Of a DNA stretch of 53,967 nt, positions 1 through 9,060 are shown one piece after another. How positions within the stretch are numbered: the stretch's first letter is position 1; each line of letters opens with the position of its first letter. The position numbers were made by a program, and so were the translations under genes. Below the pieces are notes generated by a model, which was not told the origin of the DNA, did not search any database, and worked only from the letters and a program-made list of their open reading frames with translations. Origin of the DNA: Nitrosomonas sp. Lineage in GTDB: Bacteria > Pseudomonadota > Gammaproteobacteria > Burkholderiales > Nitrosomonadaceae. The stretch spans positions 1 through 53,967 of the forward strand of contig NZ_JAMWZS010000017.1 of NCBI RefSeq assembly GCF_024282095.1, given 5' to 3'.

Positions 1-104
1 ACCATTGCTTTTTCCAAACCACGCATTTAAAATGCCACCCGTTACTGGCTTTCCAAAACGCCGATTGAACGATTGACGGCATAGCAACTCAAAAAGCAGT
101 AATT

Positions 105-208
105 CAATGGAAACTAGGGTTCCGGTCGGTGCACTAAACGGCGTCAGGTCCAAGAGTTTCCGGTCTCGTGATAACGAGGCTCCACGGAGGGAAAAAAGCC
201 CGGGAGAT
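105..208 (+). promoter_or_regulatory. Guanidine-I riboswitch (ykkC class, type 1)
   Basis: The leader carries the conserved blocks of the ykkC/guanidine-I aptamer in the right order: CTAGGGTTCCG at 114-124, GGTCCAAGAG at 147-156, and ACGGAGGGAAAAAAGCCCGG continuing into GAGA at 184-207. Known members bind free guanidinium and switch on genes for guanidine export or breakdown. The gene downstream, 64 bp away, opens an operon of permease, DUF1989 pair, carboxylase and allophanate hydrolase, the breakdown gene set that this riboswitch typically controls. The outer limits of the P1 stem are approximate because they were read by eye, not folded. Confidence 0.9.
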
Positions 209-213
209 TAAGC

Positions 214-256
214 GTAATGTACGTGAAGTGCATTACAATCTCGGCAAACCCTTTTT
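214..256 (+). promoter_or_regulatory. Possible riboswitch expression platform (hairpin and T tract)
   Basis: An inverted repeat GTAATG (214-219) / CATTAC (231-236) follows the aptamer, and a run of five T lies at 252-256. TCTCGGC at 239-245 could also pair imperfectly with the 3' end of the aptamer (GCC and GAGA within 198-207), which would make it exclusive with ligand binding. This is compatible with ligand-controlled termination or RBS exposure, but the T tract does not directly abut a strong GC stem, so the mechanism is undecided. Confidence 0.35.
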
Positions 257-271
257 GTATGGAGACTTGTT

Positions 272-1708
272 ATGTCAGGTTCAACGAAACAAACCGTTTC
301 TTCGCAAGATGCCCATGTAGTCGGCGATGTACTCAATCGCAGCATGAGTGTATGGCACAGCTTCACGCTGGGTTTTGCGGTTGTCTCGCCGGTCGCCGGA
401 CTCTATGCCATCATCGGTGTGCAAACCACAGTTACCGGTGGCGGTTGGTTTGCTGCATTAGCGGTCTGCTTGATCATGCAGCTACTGGTGGCTACCGTTT
501 ATGCAGAATTGTCTTCGCAATTCCCGATTGCGGGCGGTGCCTATAAATGGGCACGGCAACTGGGTGGCGCCATCGCCGGGCAATATGCAGGTGTGATTTA
601 TATTTGTTCCACCATTGCCATGGTCACGACAACCGCTTACACAGGCGGTTTCTGGCTCGCCACCTTTTGCGGATCGCAGGGTGATGGCGGCGCGATGATG
701 GTGCTTTGGGGCGCCCTATTTCTCTTTCTCTGCACACTACTCAATCTGGCGCCTGTCGGCATTTTCAATCTGGTGATCAAGCTCGGTGTTTACGCTGAAG
801 TTGTAGGGTCATTCGGCGTGGCACTGCTGTTATTTCTTTTCTTCCGTCAGCATTCTTTCATGGAATTGTTCCAGCATATGGGTACCGGAACTGCGCCCAG
901 TGAAATGGCTGCTTTTCTGGCGGCACTGGCTATCGCCGGTTGGGCTTTTATCGGTTTTGATGCCTGCTCCACCACAGCGGAAGAAACCCATCAACCGAAA
1001 CGCATGGTGCCGCGTGCAATTCTCATGTCGCTACTCGTTGTCGGCACAGTGGTTTTATTTAACTCAGCCGCACTGATCTTGGCATTTGATCATGACACAT
1101 TGAGAAATTCCAGCCATACCGCTGATCCGGTGACGCCATTGATTGCCAGCAGCATTGGCGCTTGGTTTGAAAAACCCTTTCTGGCCATTGTGATGACTGC
1201 TTTTCTGGCCTGCGGCGCATCCATGACCAAATATACTTCCCGCATCGTTTACTCCATGGCGCGGGAAGGCAATATGCCAGCCATGTTGAGCCGGGTAACG
1301 GCCAGTAAAACACCACGTAATGCGGTTCTCTTTACCGTTCTGCTGGCAGGTTGTGGATTGATTTTCGGACTCAATGATGATGCCGTGGCCACCATAATCG
1401 CTTTTGGTACCGGCGGTTTATACGCCATGTTCACGTTCACGACTGGATTTGCATTGTTTGCCCGGCTCACAGGCCGGTGGAATCCGCAACTCGGCGAATT
1501 AAAGCTTGGCGCATGGGGTCTGGTCATCAATATCCTGGCATTCATTTGGTCGTTGTTTGAGGTCATCAATATCGCCTGGCCCCGCCCGTATGCCATTTCA
1601 GCCGATGCGCCATGGTGGCAATTATGGGCAACGCCACTGGTACTCGGCAGTATTCTGACCATCACCACACTATATATCCTTTGCAAGAAATGGATTAGCA
1701 CTAAGTAA
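272..1708 (+). CDS. APC-superfamily amino acid/polyamine-type permease, probable guanidine (or guanidino compound) importer
   Basis: This 478-residue protein is almost wholly hydrophobic, with about twelve membrane segments, and has the look of the APC superfamily. A short polar N-terminus leads into a first helix with the small-residue-rich stretch GFAVVSPVAGLY, and a YAELSSQFPIAGGAYKWA segment follows, typical of helix 2-3 of amino acid permeases. ATG at 272 has a GGAG ribosome binding site at 261-264. It is the first gene after the guanidine-I riboswitch and lies 24 bp upstream of the deiminase genes. Related permeases are often annotated as urea carboxylase-associated. The substrate is inferred only from the operon: guanidinium, urea or an amino acid are all possible. 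Confidence 0.85.
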   Translation: MSGSTKQTVSSQDAHVVGDVLNRSMSVWHSFTLGFAVVSPVAGLYAIIGVQTTVTGGGWFAALAVCLIMQLLVATVYAELSSQFPIAGGAYKWARQLGGAIAGQYAGVIYICSTIAMVTTTAYTGGFWLATFCGSQGDGGAMMVLWGALFLFLCTLLNLAPVGIFNLVIKLGVYAEVVGSFGVALLLFLFFRQHSFMELFQHMGTGTAPSEMAAFLAALAIAGWAFIGFDACSTTAEETHQPKRMVPRAILMSLLVVGTVVLFNSAALILAFDHDTLRNSSHTADPVTPLIASSIGAWFEKPFLAIVMTAFLACGASMTKYTSRIVYSMAREGNMPAMLSRVTASKTPRNAVLFTVLLAGCGLIFGLNDDAVATIIAFGTGGLYAMFTFTTGFALFARLTGRWNPQLGELKLGAWGLVINILAFIWSLFEVINIAWPRPYAISADAPWWQLWATPLVLGSILTITTLYILCKKWISTK

Positions 1709-1732
1709 AATTGCTTTAACAAGGAGTTCATC

Positions 1733-2461
1733 ATGAATCAACAAAAAATTATCTGGAAACAATCCATACCCGGCGGATGCCACTGGTCCGGCATCATGCG
1801 TCGCGGCACCACGTTACGCCTGACGGACGTGAGTGGTGGTGCAAATGCAGCGGTGCTGTTCTTTAATCAGGAAGAAAAGCTCGAACGCTACAATATGGCA
1901 GATACACTGAAATCGCAGCATACCTTCCGTCTGACCCAAGGACACGCGTGCCATTCGGATATGGGACGGATTTTCTGCTGCATCACGGCGGATACCGCCG
2001 GCTGGAACGATACCGTATGCGGATTGAGTGACGCTCAATTAATACAACAAAAATATGGCATTGCGCGTTATCAGGAACACCGCAATCACATGTTTCGCAG
2101 CGGCCTGGACGGCATGTTGATCGAACTGGGTAAATGGGGATTAGGCATGCGCGACGTTGTGTCCAATATTAATTTCTTCAGCAAAGTCACTGCTGATGCC
2201 GACGGCGAGCTGACATTTCATGCCGGTAACAGCCAGGCAGGTGATTATATTGATCTGAGTTTTGCAATGGATACCTTGGTCATCCTCTCGGCTGCCCCGC
2301 ATCCGCTGGATACAAAGCCAACTTACCAGCCCGGCACCGTTGATCTGTCGGCATTTGTGACACCCGATGCAGCAGCCTCAATATGCCAACAGATTGCCGA
2401 AAACGTCAGAGGATTACACAATACCCATCGGTTCTATCACCCCTGTGGAGGTGCGCAATGA
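1733..2461 (+). CDS. cgdB: Carboxyguanidine deiminase subunit (DUF1989; urea carboxylase-associated protein 2 type)
   Basis: This 242-residue protein belongs to the DUF1989 family and is a divergent paralogue of the next gene. Shared blocks include LFFNQEEKLERYNMADTLKS, ADTAGWND and SNINFF. Characterised pairs (CgdA/CgdB) form a heteromeric carboxyguanidine deiminase that removes ammonia from carboxyguanidine to give allophanate. This copy has HRNHMF where its partner has SCRDNF, so it lacks that cysteine and may be the less catalytic or structural partner (inference). An AAGGAG site precedes ATG 1733, and the stop overlaps the next start as ATGA, which suggests translational coupling and equal amounts of the two subunits. 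Which paralogue is called A or B follows the usual order and is tentative. Confidence 0.8.
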   Translation: MNQQKIIWKQSIPGGCHWSGIMRRGTTLRLTDVSGGANAAVLFFNQEEKLERYNMADTLKSQHTFRLTQGHACHSDMGRIFCCITADTAGWNDTVCGLSDAQLIQQKYGIARYQEHRNHMFRSGLDGMLIELGKWGLGMRDVVSNINFFSKVTADADGELTFHAGNSQAGDYIDLSFAMDTLVILSAAPHPLDTKPTYQPGTVDLSAFVTPDAAASICQQIAENVRGLHNTHRFYHPCGGAQ

Positions 2462-3123
2462 ACACGCAAACTATGATAGCCAGCAAACTCAACCCGGATC
2501 TCGCCGTCGTCGATGAAATTTGTGCGGCCGGCGAACCCTGGGTCGGAATCGTCAAGCAAGGGCAAATTTTTCGCATCGTTGACCTGGAAGGCAATCAAGC
2601 CGTCGACACGCTATTTTTCAATGCCGGCCACGCCTTGGAACGTTATAGCGCCACCGACACCATTCGCGCTCAGAATAAGTTGTATCTGACCACCGGCAGC
2701 AAACTCTGCTCCAATTTCGGCAACACCATGCTCACAATTGTCGCGGATACCTGTGGACGGCATGATACATTGGGCGGTGCCTGCGCGGCGGAAAGTAACA
2801 CGGTGCGCTATGCACTGGAAAAATATCCGATGCACAGTTGCCGGGACAATTTTCTACATGCACTGGCCCATGAAGCAGTTTGTGAACAGCTCAACATGAG
2901 CAAGCGTGACCTGCCGAGCAACATCAATTTTTTCATGAATGTCCCGGTCACCGAAGCAGGTGGATTGGAATTTGTCGATGGCGTCTCGGCACCGGGCAAA
3001 TACGTCGAGATGCAGGCTGAAATGGATGTATTGGTATTGATTTCGAATTGTCCGCAACTCAACAATCCGTGCAATGCCTATAATCCGACACCGATCCGGT
3101 TATTGATCTGGGATTCCCAATAA
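2458..3123 (+). CDS. cgdA: Carboxyguanidine deiminase subunit (DUF1989; urea carboxylase-associated protein 1 type)
   Basis: The protein has 221 residues when started at ATG 2458, which overlaps the previous stop and is preceded by a strong GGAGG. A longer in-frame start at 2383 would lie inside the upstream gene and is rejected. Hallmarks are VDLEGNQAVDTLFFNA (41-56), ADTCGRHDTLGGAC (96-109), SCRDNF (127-132) and NCPQLNNPCNAYNPTP (197-212), all typical of the UAAP1 type. The conserved cysteines and histidines fit a metal-dependent deiminase. With its paralogue it should convert carboxyguanidine, the carboxylase product, to allophanate and ammonia. It is 44 bp upstream of the carboxylase gene. 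No urease-type gene is present. Confidence 0.83.
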   Translation: MNTQTMIASKLNPDLAVVDEICAAGEPWVGIVKQGQIFRIVDLEGNQAVDTLFFNAGHALERYSATDTIRAQNKLYLTTGSKLCSNFGNTMLTIVADTCGRHDTLGGACAAESNTVRYALEKYPMHSCRDNFLHALAHEAVCEQLNMSKRDLPSNINFFMNVPVTEAGGLEFVDGVSAPGKYVEMQAEMDVLVLISNCPQLNNPCNAYNPTPIRLLIWDSQ

Positions 3124-3167
3124 TCGATAAATCCAGTTGATGATTCATCAAGAAAAAGGATAACGCT

Positions 3168-6100
3168 ATGTTCGATAAAGTCTTGATTGCCAATCGCGGC
3201 GCCATTGCTTGCCGGATTACTCGCACCCTGCGCCGCATGCATGTCAAAAGTGTCGCCGTTTATACCGAAGCCGATGCGTTATCGCGGCATGTCACCGAAG
3301 CCGATGAAGCCTACTGCATTGGCAGCGGACTCGCTGCGGAAAGCTATTTGCGCACCGATAAAATCCTGGAAATTGCTCAGCAAAGCGGCGCGCAAGCGAT
3401 TCATCCCGGCTATGGTTTTCTTAGCGAGAAAGCCGATTTTGCCGAGCAGTGCGCCGCGCATGGCATCTGTTTTATCGGCCCTACACCGCAACAAATGCGC
3501 GCGTTTGGTTTAAAGCACACAGCACGCGCCTTGGCACTGGAGAATCAGGTGCCGTTGCTGCCGGGAACCGGTTTATTAGAAAACCTTGAAGCAGCGTGTC
3601 ATCAGGCCAAACACATCGGCTATCCCGTCATGTTGAAAAGCACCGCCGGCGGCGGCGGTATCGGCATGCGTTTGTGCTGGAACCAGGATGAATTGGTCGG
3701 TGCCTACGAATCGGTCAAAACGTTGGCACAAAACAATTTCAAGGATGCCGGTTTATTCCTGGAAAAATTTGTCGACCGGGCGCGTCATATCGAAGTACAG
3801 ATTTTCGGTGATGGCAAAGGCCAAGTCGTCGCACTGGGTGAGCGTGACTGTTCCATGCAGCGGCGCAACCAGAAAGTCATCGAGGAAACACCCGCCCCCA
3901 ACCTTGCACCGCATCTGCGCCAAGCGTTGCTGGACACGGCGGTACGCCTTGGTAAAGCCATCAGCTATCAGTCTGCCGGCACCGTTGAATACATTTTTGA
4001 TGCTGCCAATGGCCAATTTTATTTTCTTGAGGTCAATACCCGCCTGCAGGTCGAACATGGCGTGACGGAAGAAGTCACCGGCATTGATCTGGTGGAATGG
4101 ATGGTGCGGCAGGCGGCTGGCGACCTCCCTCCCCTCGAATCTTTCACGATCAAACCTACTGGTGCTTCGATTCAGGTACGGGTGTATGCCGAAAATCCCG
4201 CAAAAGATTTTCAACCCTCCAGCGGTACACTCACCGCAGCGGAGTTTTCCACCGCCGCACGTGTTGAAACCTGGGTTGAGCGCGGTATTGAAGTATCCGC
4301 GTTTTATGATCCGATGCTGGCAAAAATCATCGTACATGCACCAGAGCGGGAAATAGCCATCGCCAAGCTATTGACCGCATTGGACAATACATCGCTGCAT
4401 GGGATTGAAACCAATCTGGCCTATCTCAAACAGATTCTGCGCAGCACGGTGTTCCGCAATGGGCAATCGACTACGCAATTCCTCAATGGCTTTCATTATC
4501 AGCCGCACAGTATCGATGTTCTGAATGCCGGCGTGCAAACCACGATACAGGATTATCCCGGGCGGATCGGTTACTGGCATGTCGGCGTTCCGCCTTCCGG
4601 ACCGATGGATAGTCTGGCTTTCCGCTTTGCCAACCGGTTGGTCAGCAATCCCGAGGATAGCGCCGGACTGGAAATCACGCTGGCAGGCCCGACACTGCGT
4701 TTTAATTGCGACAGCATCATTGCCATCTGTGGCGCGCCTATCGATGTATCGCTGGATGGCGAGCCGCTGCCACTATGGCAATCCCATGCCATCAAAGCCG
4801 GTGCACTCGTGCAATTTGGCAAAATTCGGCAAGCCGGCAGCCGGGTTTATCTGGCCGTACACGGTGGTTTTCAGGTACCCGATTATCTGGGCAGCAAATC
4901 CACCTTTACACTCGGCCAATTTGGCGGACATGCCGGACGCGTGCTGCGTGTCGGCGATGTCTTGCATGTGCAACCGCTGCCATCTTCCCAACCGGCGCCA
5001 CAACATTTGCCGCAACCATGGGCGCCGCTTTATACAAATCGCTGGGAAATTGCCGTATTGTACGGCCCTCACGGCGCGCCGGATTTCTTTACCGCAGCGG
5101 ACATTGAACAGTTTTTTGCCGCCGAGTGGAAGGTACATCATAACTCCAGCCGTACCGGCGTGCGGCTGATCGGCCCTAAACCGAAATGGGCGCGTAGCGA
5201 TGGTGGCGAAGCCGGCCTGCATCCCTCCAATATTCACGACAATGCCTATGCCATCGGCGCAGTCGATTTTACCGGCGATATGCCGATTATCCTCGGCCCT
5301 GACGGCCCCAGCCTGGGTGGTTTCGTGTGCCCGGTCACCATCGTCCAAGCGGAATTGTGGAAAACCGGGCAACTCAAACCCGGCGACAGCATCCGCTTTT
5401 ATCCGGTATCGATGGAACAGGCGCTCGCATTGGAACAACAGCAAAACCAACTGATTCAACATCTTCATGCGGATGCAAGTTCGCCGATAGTTGCTCGATC
5501 CGAAAAACCAGGCAGCCCCATTCTGCACTGCATTCCGGAGAGCACAGCACAAGTGCAAGTCACTTATCGCCAATCCGGCGATAAATACCTGTTGATCGAA
5601 TATGGGTCGGCGGTACTCGATCTGAATTTGCGCTTTCGTGCACATGCATTGATGACCTGGTTGCAACAATGCATCGATAATGGTGAGCTTTGCGGCATTC
5701 TGGATCTGACACCCGGCATACGCTCATTACAGATTCATTTTGACTCAAGCCAACTGGCACGCGAAAAATTACTGGCGCTTCTGATCACGGGCGAAAGCCA
5801 ATTGCCATCGATTGATGACATGGAAGTACCGTCCCGCATCGTCCACCTGCCTTTATCCTGGGATGATGCGGCCACGCGGCTCGCCATCGAAAAGTATATG
5901 CAATCGGTACGCAGCAATGCGCCCTGGTGCCCGAGCAATATTGAATTTATTCGCCGCATTAATGGGCTGGAAAGCATTGAGGAGGTTCAGCATATCGTAT
6001 TTGCAGCCAGCTATCTGGTGATGGGGTTGGGCGATGTCTATTTGGGCGCGCCCGTAGCAACCCCGCTGGATCCGCGCCATCGTCTGGTCACCACCAAATA

Positions 6101-6794
6101 CAACCCGGCGCGCACCTGGACACCCGAAAATGCCGTCGGTATCGGTGGCGCCTATTTATGCGTATACGGTATGGAAGGTCCGGGCGGTTATCAGTTCGTC
6201 GGCCGTACCGTGCCGATGTGGAATCGTTATCGCCAGACCACCGATTTCAAAGATGGTCAACCGTGGTTATTACGCTTCTTCGATCAAATTCGTTTCTACC
6301 CGGTCAGTGAGAGTGAACTGCTCAAACTGCGTAAGGATTTCATCAGCGGACACTTCAAACTGCGCACGGAGGAGACGACTCTCAACTTGAAACAGTACCA
6401 TGCCTTCCTGCAACAACATGCCGCCAGCATCAGCACATTCAAAACCCGGCAGCAGGCTGCATTTGAGGCCGAACGGCAACGTTGGGAAGCCAATGGTCAA
6501 GCGCAGTATGTCAGTGAAGATACGCTCGATGAAGCGGATTCACAAAGCGAACTGGATTTGCCGGAAGGTGCGCAAGCCGTCAGCTCTCAGGTAACCGGCA
6601 CTGTGTGGAAGCTGCTGGTCAAAGCAGGTGAACAGGTGGAAGCAGGCAAGCCGGTGGTCATGATTGAATCGATGAAAATGGAATTTCCGGTGGATTCGCC
6701 CGTTACCGGCACGGTGCAGCAGTTATGTTGCAAACAAGGCGGATATGTCTCTGCCGGACAAGTGCTGTTCATCATCCAGGAAAACCCATCATGA
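3168..6794 (+). CDS. Biotin-dependent guanidine/urea carboxylase
   Basis: The 1208-residue multidomain enzyme has the urea carboxylase layout. A biotin carboxylase part covers about 1-445, with HPGYGFLSE (79-87), a glycine-rich ATP-grasp loop [10 protein letters not shown] (157-166) and [14 protein letters not shown] (288-301). A KipA/AHS2-like half of the carboxyltransferase follows at about 450-770, then a KipI/AHS1-like half at about 800-1045, and a biotinyl domain at about 1130-1205 with ESMKME, biotin on Lys1170. It uses ATP and bicarbonate to carboxylate urea or guanidine. Its neighbours (riboswitch and deiminase pair) favour guanidine, since a urea carboxylase would need no deiminase. 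Most family members are annotated simply as urea carboxylase. Start ATG 3168 follows an AAAAGGA site. Confidence 0.9.
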
Positions 6795-8623
6795 TGCGCA
6801 AGTTTCTCCCGCTGAGTGATATACCCTCTTTGCTGCAACGCTACGCCAGCGGCGAGCTATCACCCACGCAAATAGTGGAAACCATTCATGCCGACATTCA
6901 GCATGATCCCGATCATATCTGGATTTCGACACTGTCATTGGAGTCATTACGAGGTTACGCCCGCAAAGTGGAAGCGCAAGACATGACGTCATTGCCGCTG
7001 TATGGCGTGCCTTTCGCCATCAAGGATAATATCGATCTGGCGAACATACCAACCACCGCGGCCTGTCCGGCTTTTGCCTACACGCCATCGCGCAGCGCCA
7101 CAGTCGTGCAAAAATTGATCGATGCCGGCGCGATTCCCATCGGCAAAACCAATCTCGATCAGTTCGCCACCGGATTGAATGGCACGCGGTCGCCTTATGG
7201 TGCGTGCCGCAATGCATTCAATCCCGAATATATTTCCGGCGGCTCCAGTTCAGGTTCGGCGGTCGCTGTCGCCAAGGGGCAGGTGTGTTTCAGCCTCGGC
7301 ACCGATACCGCAGGTTCGGGCAGAATTCCCGCCGCTTTTAATAACCTGATTGGCTATAAACCCACCAAAGGCTGGTTTTCTGCGCAAGGCATGGTGCCCG
7401 CCTGCCGTTCCCTCGATACGGTATCCGTCTTCACTCATACCGCCGCCGATGCAGTGCACATCCTGGCAATCTGCGCCGCTTATGACACAGCGGATAGCTA
7501 TTCTCGTGAAAGAGAAGCACATGGATTCGATTTCGGCACAGCACCCCATTTTCACTTCGGTATACCGCGTCCGCAACAACTGAAATTCTTCGGTAATCGC
7601 GACAGCGAGCGATTGTTCAATGATGCCGTAGCCCGCATGCAGGCACTGGGTGGAAAAACTGTCACGATAGATTTCGAGCCCTTTCTCGAAGCTGCGCGCC
7701 TCCTCTACGAAGGCCCCTGGGTGGCGGAACGTTATGCCGCCATTCAATCTTTCTTCGAGCTGCACAGTGATCAGATCATCGCACCGGTGCATGAAATCAT
7801 CGCGACCGGGAAACAGCGCTCAGCTGCGGATGCTTTCAATGGCATCTATCAACTACGCAGAATCAAACAGCAAGCAGATCAGATTTGGACACAAGTTGAT
7901 TGTTTGCTGACACCAACCGCCGGCACGATCTATCCCATTTATGCCATGCAGCAGGATCCCATAGGCCTCAATACCAACTTGGGCTATTACACCAATTTTA
8001 TGAATCTGCTCGACTATGCCGCAGTCGCCGTGCCTGCCGGTTTTCAAAGTGATGGACTACCTTTTGGCATCACGCTGGCAGCACCGGCCCACCAGGATGA
8101 ACCACTGCTGCATCTGGCGCATCGACTGCAACAAGTTTACTCATTGTCATTGGGTGCAACCGGCATTGCGATGCCCCGGAATATCCCCTTCCCTGCCGCA
8201 TCCCGATCCGGCCAGGTGCGGATAGCCGTCTGCGGCGCACATTTGTCGGGTTTACCGTTGAATGAACAATTAACCAGCCGCCACGGCCGATTAGTCATCA
8301 GCACGACCACTTCGCCCGATTACAGGCTCTACGCGTTACCGGGAGAATCACCGCAACGCCCTGGCTTAGTTCGGGTTAACAAAAATGAGCAAGGCGTTGC
8401 CATCGAAGTGGAAATTTGGGAGTTACCGGCACGCGAATTGGGCAGTTTTGTGGCCAATATTCCGGCACCGCTAGGCATCGGCACCATTACCCTGGCAAAC
8501 GGCAAAACAGTGCAAGGCTTTCTCTGCGAGCGTTACGCTATCGACAATGCAACAGATATCAGTCATTTCAGCGGATGGCGCAACTACTTAGCCGCCCCTG
8601 CAAAACGCTTGGAAGCCCTATAA
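6791..8623 (+). CDS. atzF: Allophanate hydrolase
   Basis: This 610-residue amidase-signature enzyme hydrolyses allophanate to two ammonia and two CO2, the last step of the pathway. The Ser-cisSer-Lys triad is visible: Lys78 in AIKDN, Ser152 in GGSSSGS and Ser176 in [10 protein letters not shown], with the spacings seen in AtzF and malonamidase. The C-terminal part (about 440-610) matches the extra domain of full-length allophanate hydrolases. The start is placed at ATG 6791, which overlaps the carboxylase stop by 4 bp; a tandem ATG at 6794 is equally possible. The longer frame from 6725 lies inside the carboxylase and is rejected. It is the last gene of the operon. Confidence 0.92.
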
Positions 8624-8669
8624 ATGTTCGAACTCATGCGAATTAGCAAACGCTGGAATCCCTGGGAAA

Positions 8670-8910
8670 TTATAATATAGGCATCAAAACCTGAGGAAAT
8701 GAGGGGAAACTTAAATGCCGATTGATAATTTTTCTCATGCTCATCTCGACCAGATGGCAGGTGTCCGACAACGGCTGACGACCGGCCCGAGTGTGGGGTA
8801 CCTTGGGAATACCTTTTGGTGTCGGCGCATTCAGCTGTTCAATCTCAGCAATGACAGTCGCCATATCGGATTGCAGAGATTCTTCGAACAGGCTTGGCAG
8901 CGTCGAGAGT
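8670..8910 (-). pseudogene. IS66 tnpC transposase fragment
   Basis: The minus strand reads LPSLFEESLQSDMATVIAE, then EIEQLNAPTPKG and RQPLSDTCHLVE. This resembles the part of IS66 TnpC where an acidic coiled region (LFEE, EAEL type) is followed by a RQPLPxHLPR-type motif. Only about 80 codons are open, there is a stop at 8911-8913, and the zinc-finger and DDE regions are absent, so this is debris. The overlapping plus-strand frame at 8715-8981 has no recognisable content and is treated as a shadow. Confidence 0.55.
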
Positions 8911-9060
8911 CAATTGATCAAGCCGGACGAGTGACTTCATGGTCGTCGTTATATCATGAAACGACATCAATCTATTGTTAACATTGAATTATTGTGTATA
9001 TTTGCACGCGTAAATGTGCAAGCGGCGCTGTTGATAAGCGTTACCAGTCGACTTCCGTCG

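Follow-up and report, generated by a model that had tools for sequence, protein, structure and literature searches.

The window analysed in this study (the whole 53,967-nucleotide stretch of Nitrosomonas sp. contig NZ_JAMWZS010000017.1, assembly GCF_024282095.1) contains, close to its 5′ end, a Guanidine-I riboswitch aptamer followed by five genes. With a probability of about 0.92, these genes form an operon that is induced by guanidine in an ammonia oxidiser of the Nitrosomonas type and is predicted from sequence to import this compound and degrade it to ammonia. A guanidine function had been proposed in an earlier sequence-only reading of this DNA, and it is supported by (i) a match to the riboswitch model RF00442, (ii) Asp residues at both marker positions of the carboxylase and (iii) DUF1989 partner proteins scoring above their family cut-offs. 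The elements of the operon are as follows (window positions):

103–208, + strand: Guanidine-I (ykkC) riboswitch aptamer (RF00442)
272–1708, + strand: APC-type permease, probable guanidine importer (PF13520, 121.7 bits)
1733–2461, + strand: DUF1989 protein UAAP1, predicted carboxyguanidine deiminase subunit (TIGR03425, 327.6 bits; cut-off 205.95)
2458–3123, + strand: DUF1989 protein UAAP2, predicted other carboxyguanidine deiminase subunit (TIGR03424, 341.9 bits; cut-off 284.7)
3168–6794, + strand: predicted guanidine carboxylase, 1208 aa (TIGR02712, 1965.6 bits; cut-off 1303.85)
6791–8623, + strand: allophanate hydrolase, AtzF type (TIGR02713, 816.4 bits; cut-off 511.05)

The covariance-model search suggested by the sequence-only reading was performed with cmscan. 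In the whole window, RF00442 matched positions 103–208 of the + strand with 88.2 bits (gathering score 63; E = 1.6e-14), and the same match was obtained with positions 1–400 alone (E = 1.2e-16), where no second Rfam family was found at E values up to 1. The alignment spans model positions 1–107 of 107, with two positions flagged as non-standard pairs; being full-length and above the gathering score, the element belongs to the Guanidine-I class. The three aptamer blocks that had been picked out by the sequence-only reading are all present where it had placed them. No other Guanidine-I match was detected in the source genome (2.80 Mb in 81 contigs, completeness 99.97%), whose one gene for an exporter of the SMR family is located on a different contig that carries no such match. 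The aptamer is separated from the permease ATG (272) by 63 bases, and the contig begins 102 bases 5′ of the aptamer. A promoter scan of positions 1–9000 listed no sigma-70-like site upstream of the aptamer.

The gaps between consecutive genes (24, −4, 44 and −4 bases) are as tight as expected for a single transcript; we chose the starts of UAAP2 (2458) and of the hydrolase (6791), for which the mechanical open reading frames (ORFs) begin at 2383 and 6725. All five proteins were searched against Pfam and NCBIfam. The carboxylase contains the biotin carboxylase, CT_A_B, CT_C_D and biotin carrier domains of Pfam, with a biotin site (MKM) at residue 1169, and the allophanate hydrolase combines an amidase domain (PF01425) with the C-terminal domain PF21986, as in AtzF. 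The two DUF1989 proteins correspond to the UAAP1 and UAAP2 subunits of the deiminase CgdAB, an activity predicted from their families. The gene order given by the sequence-only reading (permease, DUF1989 pair, carboxylase, atzF) was correct, but its naming of the pair as cgdB-cgdA may be reversed, given that cgdB adjoins the carboxylase gene in Vreelandella boliviensis.

The carboxylase can be aligned across its whole length with the urea carboxylase/amidolyase of Kluyveromyces lactis (3va7, 5i8i). Counted by eye on the alignment with 5i8i (1829 aa), D700 corresponds to Asn1330 and D956 to Asp1584. According to Palatinszky et al. 2024 (PMC11410670), guanidine carboxylases are recognised by Asp at K. 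lactis position 1584, and Asp at 1330 separates them from urea carboxylases; a 2025 review (PMC12186494) likewise gives Asp for guanidine and Asn for urea carboxylases at the discriminating position. Both published Asp markers are thus present in the window protein. Opposite position 1330 it has Asp700 and not the urea-type Asn. Among 84 distinct aligned proteins, that of the window included (length classes 740–830 aa and >1150 aa; others, such as contig-edge fragments, were dropped), both Asp residues occur in all 71 full-length carboxylases and in all 13 members of a shortened form described below.

Since NCBIfam, by its best matches, names the proteins “urea carboxylase” and “urea amidolyase associated protein”, the operon might be taken to degrade urea through urea carboxylase and allophanate hydrolase in a bacterium devoid of urease. 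Indeed, urease alpha gave no match in the source genome, and urea labels are used in two recent papers: a 2024 study of evolution (PMC11135946) counts the carboxylase of betaproteobacterial ammonia-oxidising bacteria (AOB) among urea genes, and phage-infected N. europaea is the subject of a 2026 paper that calls the genes urea carboxylase and urea amidolyase, favouring a pyrimidine role with guanidine as the alternative. The sequence-only reading had warned that automatic annotation would be misleading here, and these names bear it out. However, a Guanidine-I aptamer precedes the operon, two deiminase-type DUF1989 subunits are encoded within it, and the carboxylase carries Asp700 where urea carboxylases have Asn; urea amidolysis was rejected on these grounds and is very improbable. 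Still harder to credit is that the aptamer is a ykkC relative sensing guanosine tetraphosphate (ppGpp) or phosphoribosyl pyrophosphate (PRPP). Two classes related to guanidine-I do bind those ligands (PMC6031431), but the Guanidine-I model was matched over its full length and far above its cut-off, and every downstream gene fits guanidine.

For a guanidine operon, the ligand, the substrate, the direction of regulation and the transport step are assigned by analogy with published work on relatives, induction by guanidine being taken from Palatinszky et al. 2024 (PMC11410670). Guanidine would bind the aptamer (103–208) and turn the operon on, and the permease would import guanidine. The carboxylase, using ATP and bicarbonate, would convert guanidine to carboxyguanidine, from which the DUF1989 pair would produce allophanate and one ammonia; allophanate hydrolase would then release two ammonia and CO2. 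As urease alpha was not found in the source genome, this hydrolase would be the sole known route to the last two nitrogens.

An alternative hairpin at the 3′ end of the aptamer is likely, and two further features of the leader concern it:

181–263, + strand: proposed alternative structure using the aptamer 3′ end, inferred from a minimum free energy (MFE) fold
261–264, + strand: putative Shine-Dalgarno sequence GGAG of the permease gene, from the sequence

In the MFE fold of positions 103–285, the hairpin is formed by pairing of 186–191 with 249–254, 198–200 with 243–245, 204–209 with 237–242 and 214–222 with 228–236, and five T (U) residues are found after it at 252–256. In the same fold, 181–184 are paired with 260–263, masking Shine-Dalgarno bases. 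The hairpin and the last stem of the aptamer, as aligned to RF00442, would be mutually exclusive. Among 19 related leaders, 89.8% of the hairpin cells (181–184 pairs excluded) are standard pairs, compared to 38–44% for slid versions, and a two-sided change was observed at only one of 24 pairs. In a wider set of 58 leaders (from 62 references, with L009, L033, L070 and L097 excluded), GGGA at the aptamer end and a downstream UCYC are paired in 56–58 cases, with one-sided changes only. As a tentative model of the switch, the aptamer 3′ end may pair with the downstream hairpin in the absence of guanidine.

Several observations weigh against a guanidine-responsive, guanidine-importing operon. The covariation of the hairpin in the 19 leaders does not exceed that of shuffled alignments (79 of 500 shuffles reach its score), and a run of at least four T residues after it occurs in just 12 of these 19 and in 18 of the 58 leaders of the wider set. 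The permease scores 167.3 bits against a cut-off of 740.45 for TIGR03428 (“urea carboxylase system” permease), the sole family model made for such permeases; it is therefore an APC permease, yet one outside that model. Finally, none of the five AOB strains examined by Palatinszky et al. (PMC11410670) used guanidine as sole substrate; the role of the operon may thus lie in detoxification or nitrogen supply and not in energy. It is possible, though doubtful, that the same pathway acts mainly in detoxification, destroying guanidine at harmful levels with nitrogen gain as an incidental benefit; this would alter the purpose of the operon and not its chemistry. Such a role would fit the failure of the AOB strains to use guanidine alone and the inhibitory effect of 1 mM guanidine on N. 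europaea cited in the same paper. It would also fit the genus at large, since the hydrolase is under the cut-off or absent in 46 of 78 carboxylase-bearing genomes, and urease is missing as well in 20 of the 78, so that known enzymes do not in every case account for recovery of all the nitrogen. On the other hand, an importer as the first gene is odd for pure detoxification, and allophanate hydrolase is retained in the source genome.

The operon fits a set that has already been published, and the guanidine idea is in print for this bacterial group. Guanidine genes are reported for 135 of 145 betaproteobacterial AOB genomes, and an APC permease is encoded nearby in most of the ammonia oxidisers that carry them (PMC11410670). 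The betaproteobacterial operons described in that paper (Nitrosospira multiformis, Fig. 1c therein) share with the window operon the riboswitch, APC permease, deiminase, both Asp residues and hydrolase, and no difference was found. Three of the five AOB strains converted part of the guanidine to nitrite, only with ammonium present; one of the three, N. communis Nm2, is reported to be urease-less, and the source genome of the window is likewise without a urease alpha match. The operons of Raoultella, Klebsiella and Vreelandella (PMC12186494, PMC12508155) encode the same enzymes behind guanidine riboswitches, but with an ABC importer and with an additional riboswitch of class II, in place of the single class I riboswitch and APC permease found here. 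In V. boliviensis, the class-I aptamer belonging to the guanidine carboxylase operon has a dissociation constant of 44 µM for guanidine and did not bind methylguanidine in the range tested. A Guanidine-I riboswitch and an APC permease are also common to the guanidinase (GdmH) operon of the comammox (complete ammonia-oxidising) bacterium Nitrospira inopinata; GdmH, a Ni-dependent enzyme, hydrolyses guanidine to urea without ATP, instead of the carboxylation proposed here.

Analysis of the distribution of the system revealed a Guanidine-I match in 73 of 85 genomes of the genus and a TIGR02712 carboxylase over the cut-off in 78, while allophanate hydrolase and urease alpha exceeded their cut-offs in 34 and 50 of the 85, respectively. 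The closest carboxylases are those of Nitrosomonas metagenome-assembled genome NEU_AOB_2 and Nitrosomonas sp. Nm84 (94% and 95% identity in the best segment), which group with the window protein in a quick tree (support 99). A scan of named genomes yielded 79 loci. Of the 63 named loci L037–L099 (which include non-Nitrosomonas), 25 have all five genes next to one another, the hydrolase occupying a single frame in 23 of them; the four genes minus the hydrolase were found in 19, the remainder being contig fragments or other arrangements. Permease and carboxylase genes are directly adjacent in L061, L066, L077 and L079, with neither a DUF1989 gene nor a hydrolase gene found beside them.

In this genus (G000–G084) the guanidine pathway is often without a known end. 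Among genomes at least 97% complete, the hydrolase is missing in 31 of 57 carboxylase-bearing cases and urease as well in 14 of 57, where “missing” means that nothing exceeded the cut-off (G004, for example, holds two sub-cut-off pieces). Compensation by urease was considered and rejected: in carboxylase-bearing genomes of that completeness, in sets assembled by hand, urease was present/absent in 18/8 with and 17/14 without hydrolase, which is no association (Fisher p = 0.29). In the hydrolase-less loci examined, the gene 3′ of the carboxylase varies by group (methyltransferase-like, kinase-like, MltD-like and others, named by eye). Single-domain ORFs encoding small stand-alone proteins that resemble the allophanate hydrolase C-terminal domain were noted in several genomes (L116–L122); as a substitute for the hydrolase they found no support, since their neighbours differ across the seven loci examined. 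In one genome (G044) a Guanidine-I riboswitch (92.5 bits) lies directly 5′ of a lone allophanate hydrolase gene (L128:5112–7281), the carboxylase operon of that genome being some 100 kb away.

A second, shortened carboxylase (open frame of 761–811 aa) was identified in 13 of 125 genomes of the family, seven in the genus of the window and six in a second genus, which we infer to be Nitrosospira:

L026, 13661–16021: shortened carboxylase
L027, 3829–6216: shortened carboxylase
L029, 886–3228: shortened carboxylase
L031, 9731–12085: shortened carboxylase
L034, 13971–16286: shortened carboxylase
L035, 3164–5518: shortened carboxylase
L036, 3029–5374: shortened carboxylase
L131, 12961–15282: shortened carboxylase, second genus
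L132, 6837–9158: shortened carboxylase, second genus
L133, 186–2582: shortened carboxylase, second genus
L134, 10282–12555: shortened carboxylase, second genus
L135, 3867–6188: shortened carboxylase, second genus
L136, 1012–3420: shortened carboxylase, second genus

Pfam analysis of two of these proteins showed CT_A_B, CT_C_D and biotin carrier domains and no biotin carboxylase; no mention of a carboxylase missing this domain was found in a search limited to open-licence literature. All 13 genomes also encode a full-length carboxylase. The shortened proteins form one branch of the quick tree, with a support of 100 in the Shimodaira–Hasegawa-like approximate likelihood ratio test (SH-aLRT), and D700, D956 and the biotin lysine are kept in all 13. 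Pairwise ratios of non-synonymous to synonymous substitution rates (dN/dS), where dS was computable, were 0.05–0.12 in 11 shortened carboxylases and 0.04–0.13 in eight full-length partners. Of 14 near-fixed differences in the shortened forms, four (695, 705, 963 and 964) are located at most 10 residues from D700 or D956.

In the seven genomes of the window's genus, the shortened gene is the last of an operon composed of a Guanidine-I riboswitch, permease, UAAP1 and UAAP2, which either adjoins the full-length gene or lies on a separate contig. The same order was observed in four of the six loci of the second genus (L131, L132, L135 and L136), the upstream part being lost at the contig end in L133 and L134. 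Biotin-synthesis-like genes occur between the two carboxylase genes in L131–L134 (called with Pfam for the L131 genes and one L132 gene 5′ of the riboswitch, and by eye for the rest). Truncated frames of other lengths in the family were not counted, e.g. 778 aa in G124 (beside the contig start), 867 aa in G031 and 939 aa in G043. A sample of 399 genomes of the order, including some family members, revealed no further clear shortened carboxylase; the sole clear case (G008) falls within the family, and a 787-aa frame in G481, matching only residues 105–767 of the query, was left uncounted.

Allophanate hydrolase did not exceed the cut-off in any of the 13 genomes with a shortened carboxylase. 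In the second genus it was present in 16 of the 17 other genomes, the exception being G108, with a completeness of 80% (Fisher p = 6.9e-5); for the window's genus the same association gave p = 0.037, with 39 further genomes having neither hydrolase nor shortened gene. Since the genomes are related, these cases are not independent events, and in our reading the tree fits few transfers rather than 13. A 30-residue hydrolase remnant (27.3 bits) beside the full-length carboxylase gene of G106 speaks for loss of the hydrolase.

ATP-free biotin enzymes have a precedent in the transcarboxylase of Propionibacterium. By a rather improbable explanation, the shortened form would be such a transcarboxylase, with allophanate as donor and guanidine as acceptor of the carboxyl group, giving urea and a new carboxyguanidine. 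The deiminase pair could then remake allophanate, with the full-length carboxylase merely starting the cycle, and each turn could, in net terms, convert guanidine and water to urea and ammonia with no ATP spent. The absence of the ATP-using domain and the constant full-length partner would thereby be explained together with the missing hydrolase, because the hydrolase would destroy allophanate, the carboxyl donor. It is simpler and more likely that the biotin of the shortened protein is loaded in trans by the full-length partner or by AccC. Loss of the hydrolase would be expected with a transcarboxylase using allophanate but not from loading in trans; this argument is weakened by the 39 genomes that lack the hydrolase without having a shortened gene.

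Cmscan of the whole window returned three Rfam matches over the gathering score, including RF00442. One of the others is an ALIL pseudoknot (RF01497; 33441–33556, 64.4 bits); ALIL is a frameshift signal, typically found in insertion sequences. The third is psRNA2 (RF02349; 53809–53967, − strand, 74.9 bits), interrupted by the window end, and a further psRNA2 was noted 3′ of the shortened carboxylase gene in L026 (16798–16977).

By its riboswitch and marker residues, the window operon is one more guanidine operon mislabelled as urea-degrading. If the transcarboxylase explanation of the shortened carboxylase were true, it would represent a new, cheap way to open guanidine, in bacteria that live on little energy.

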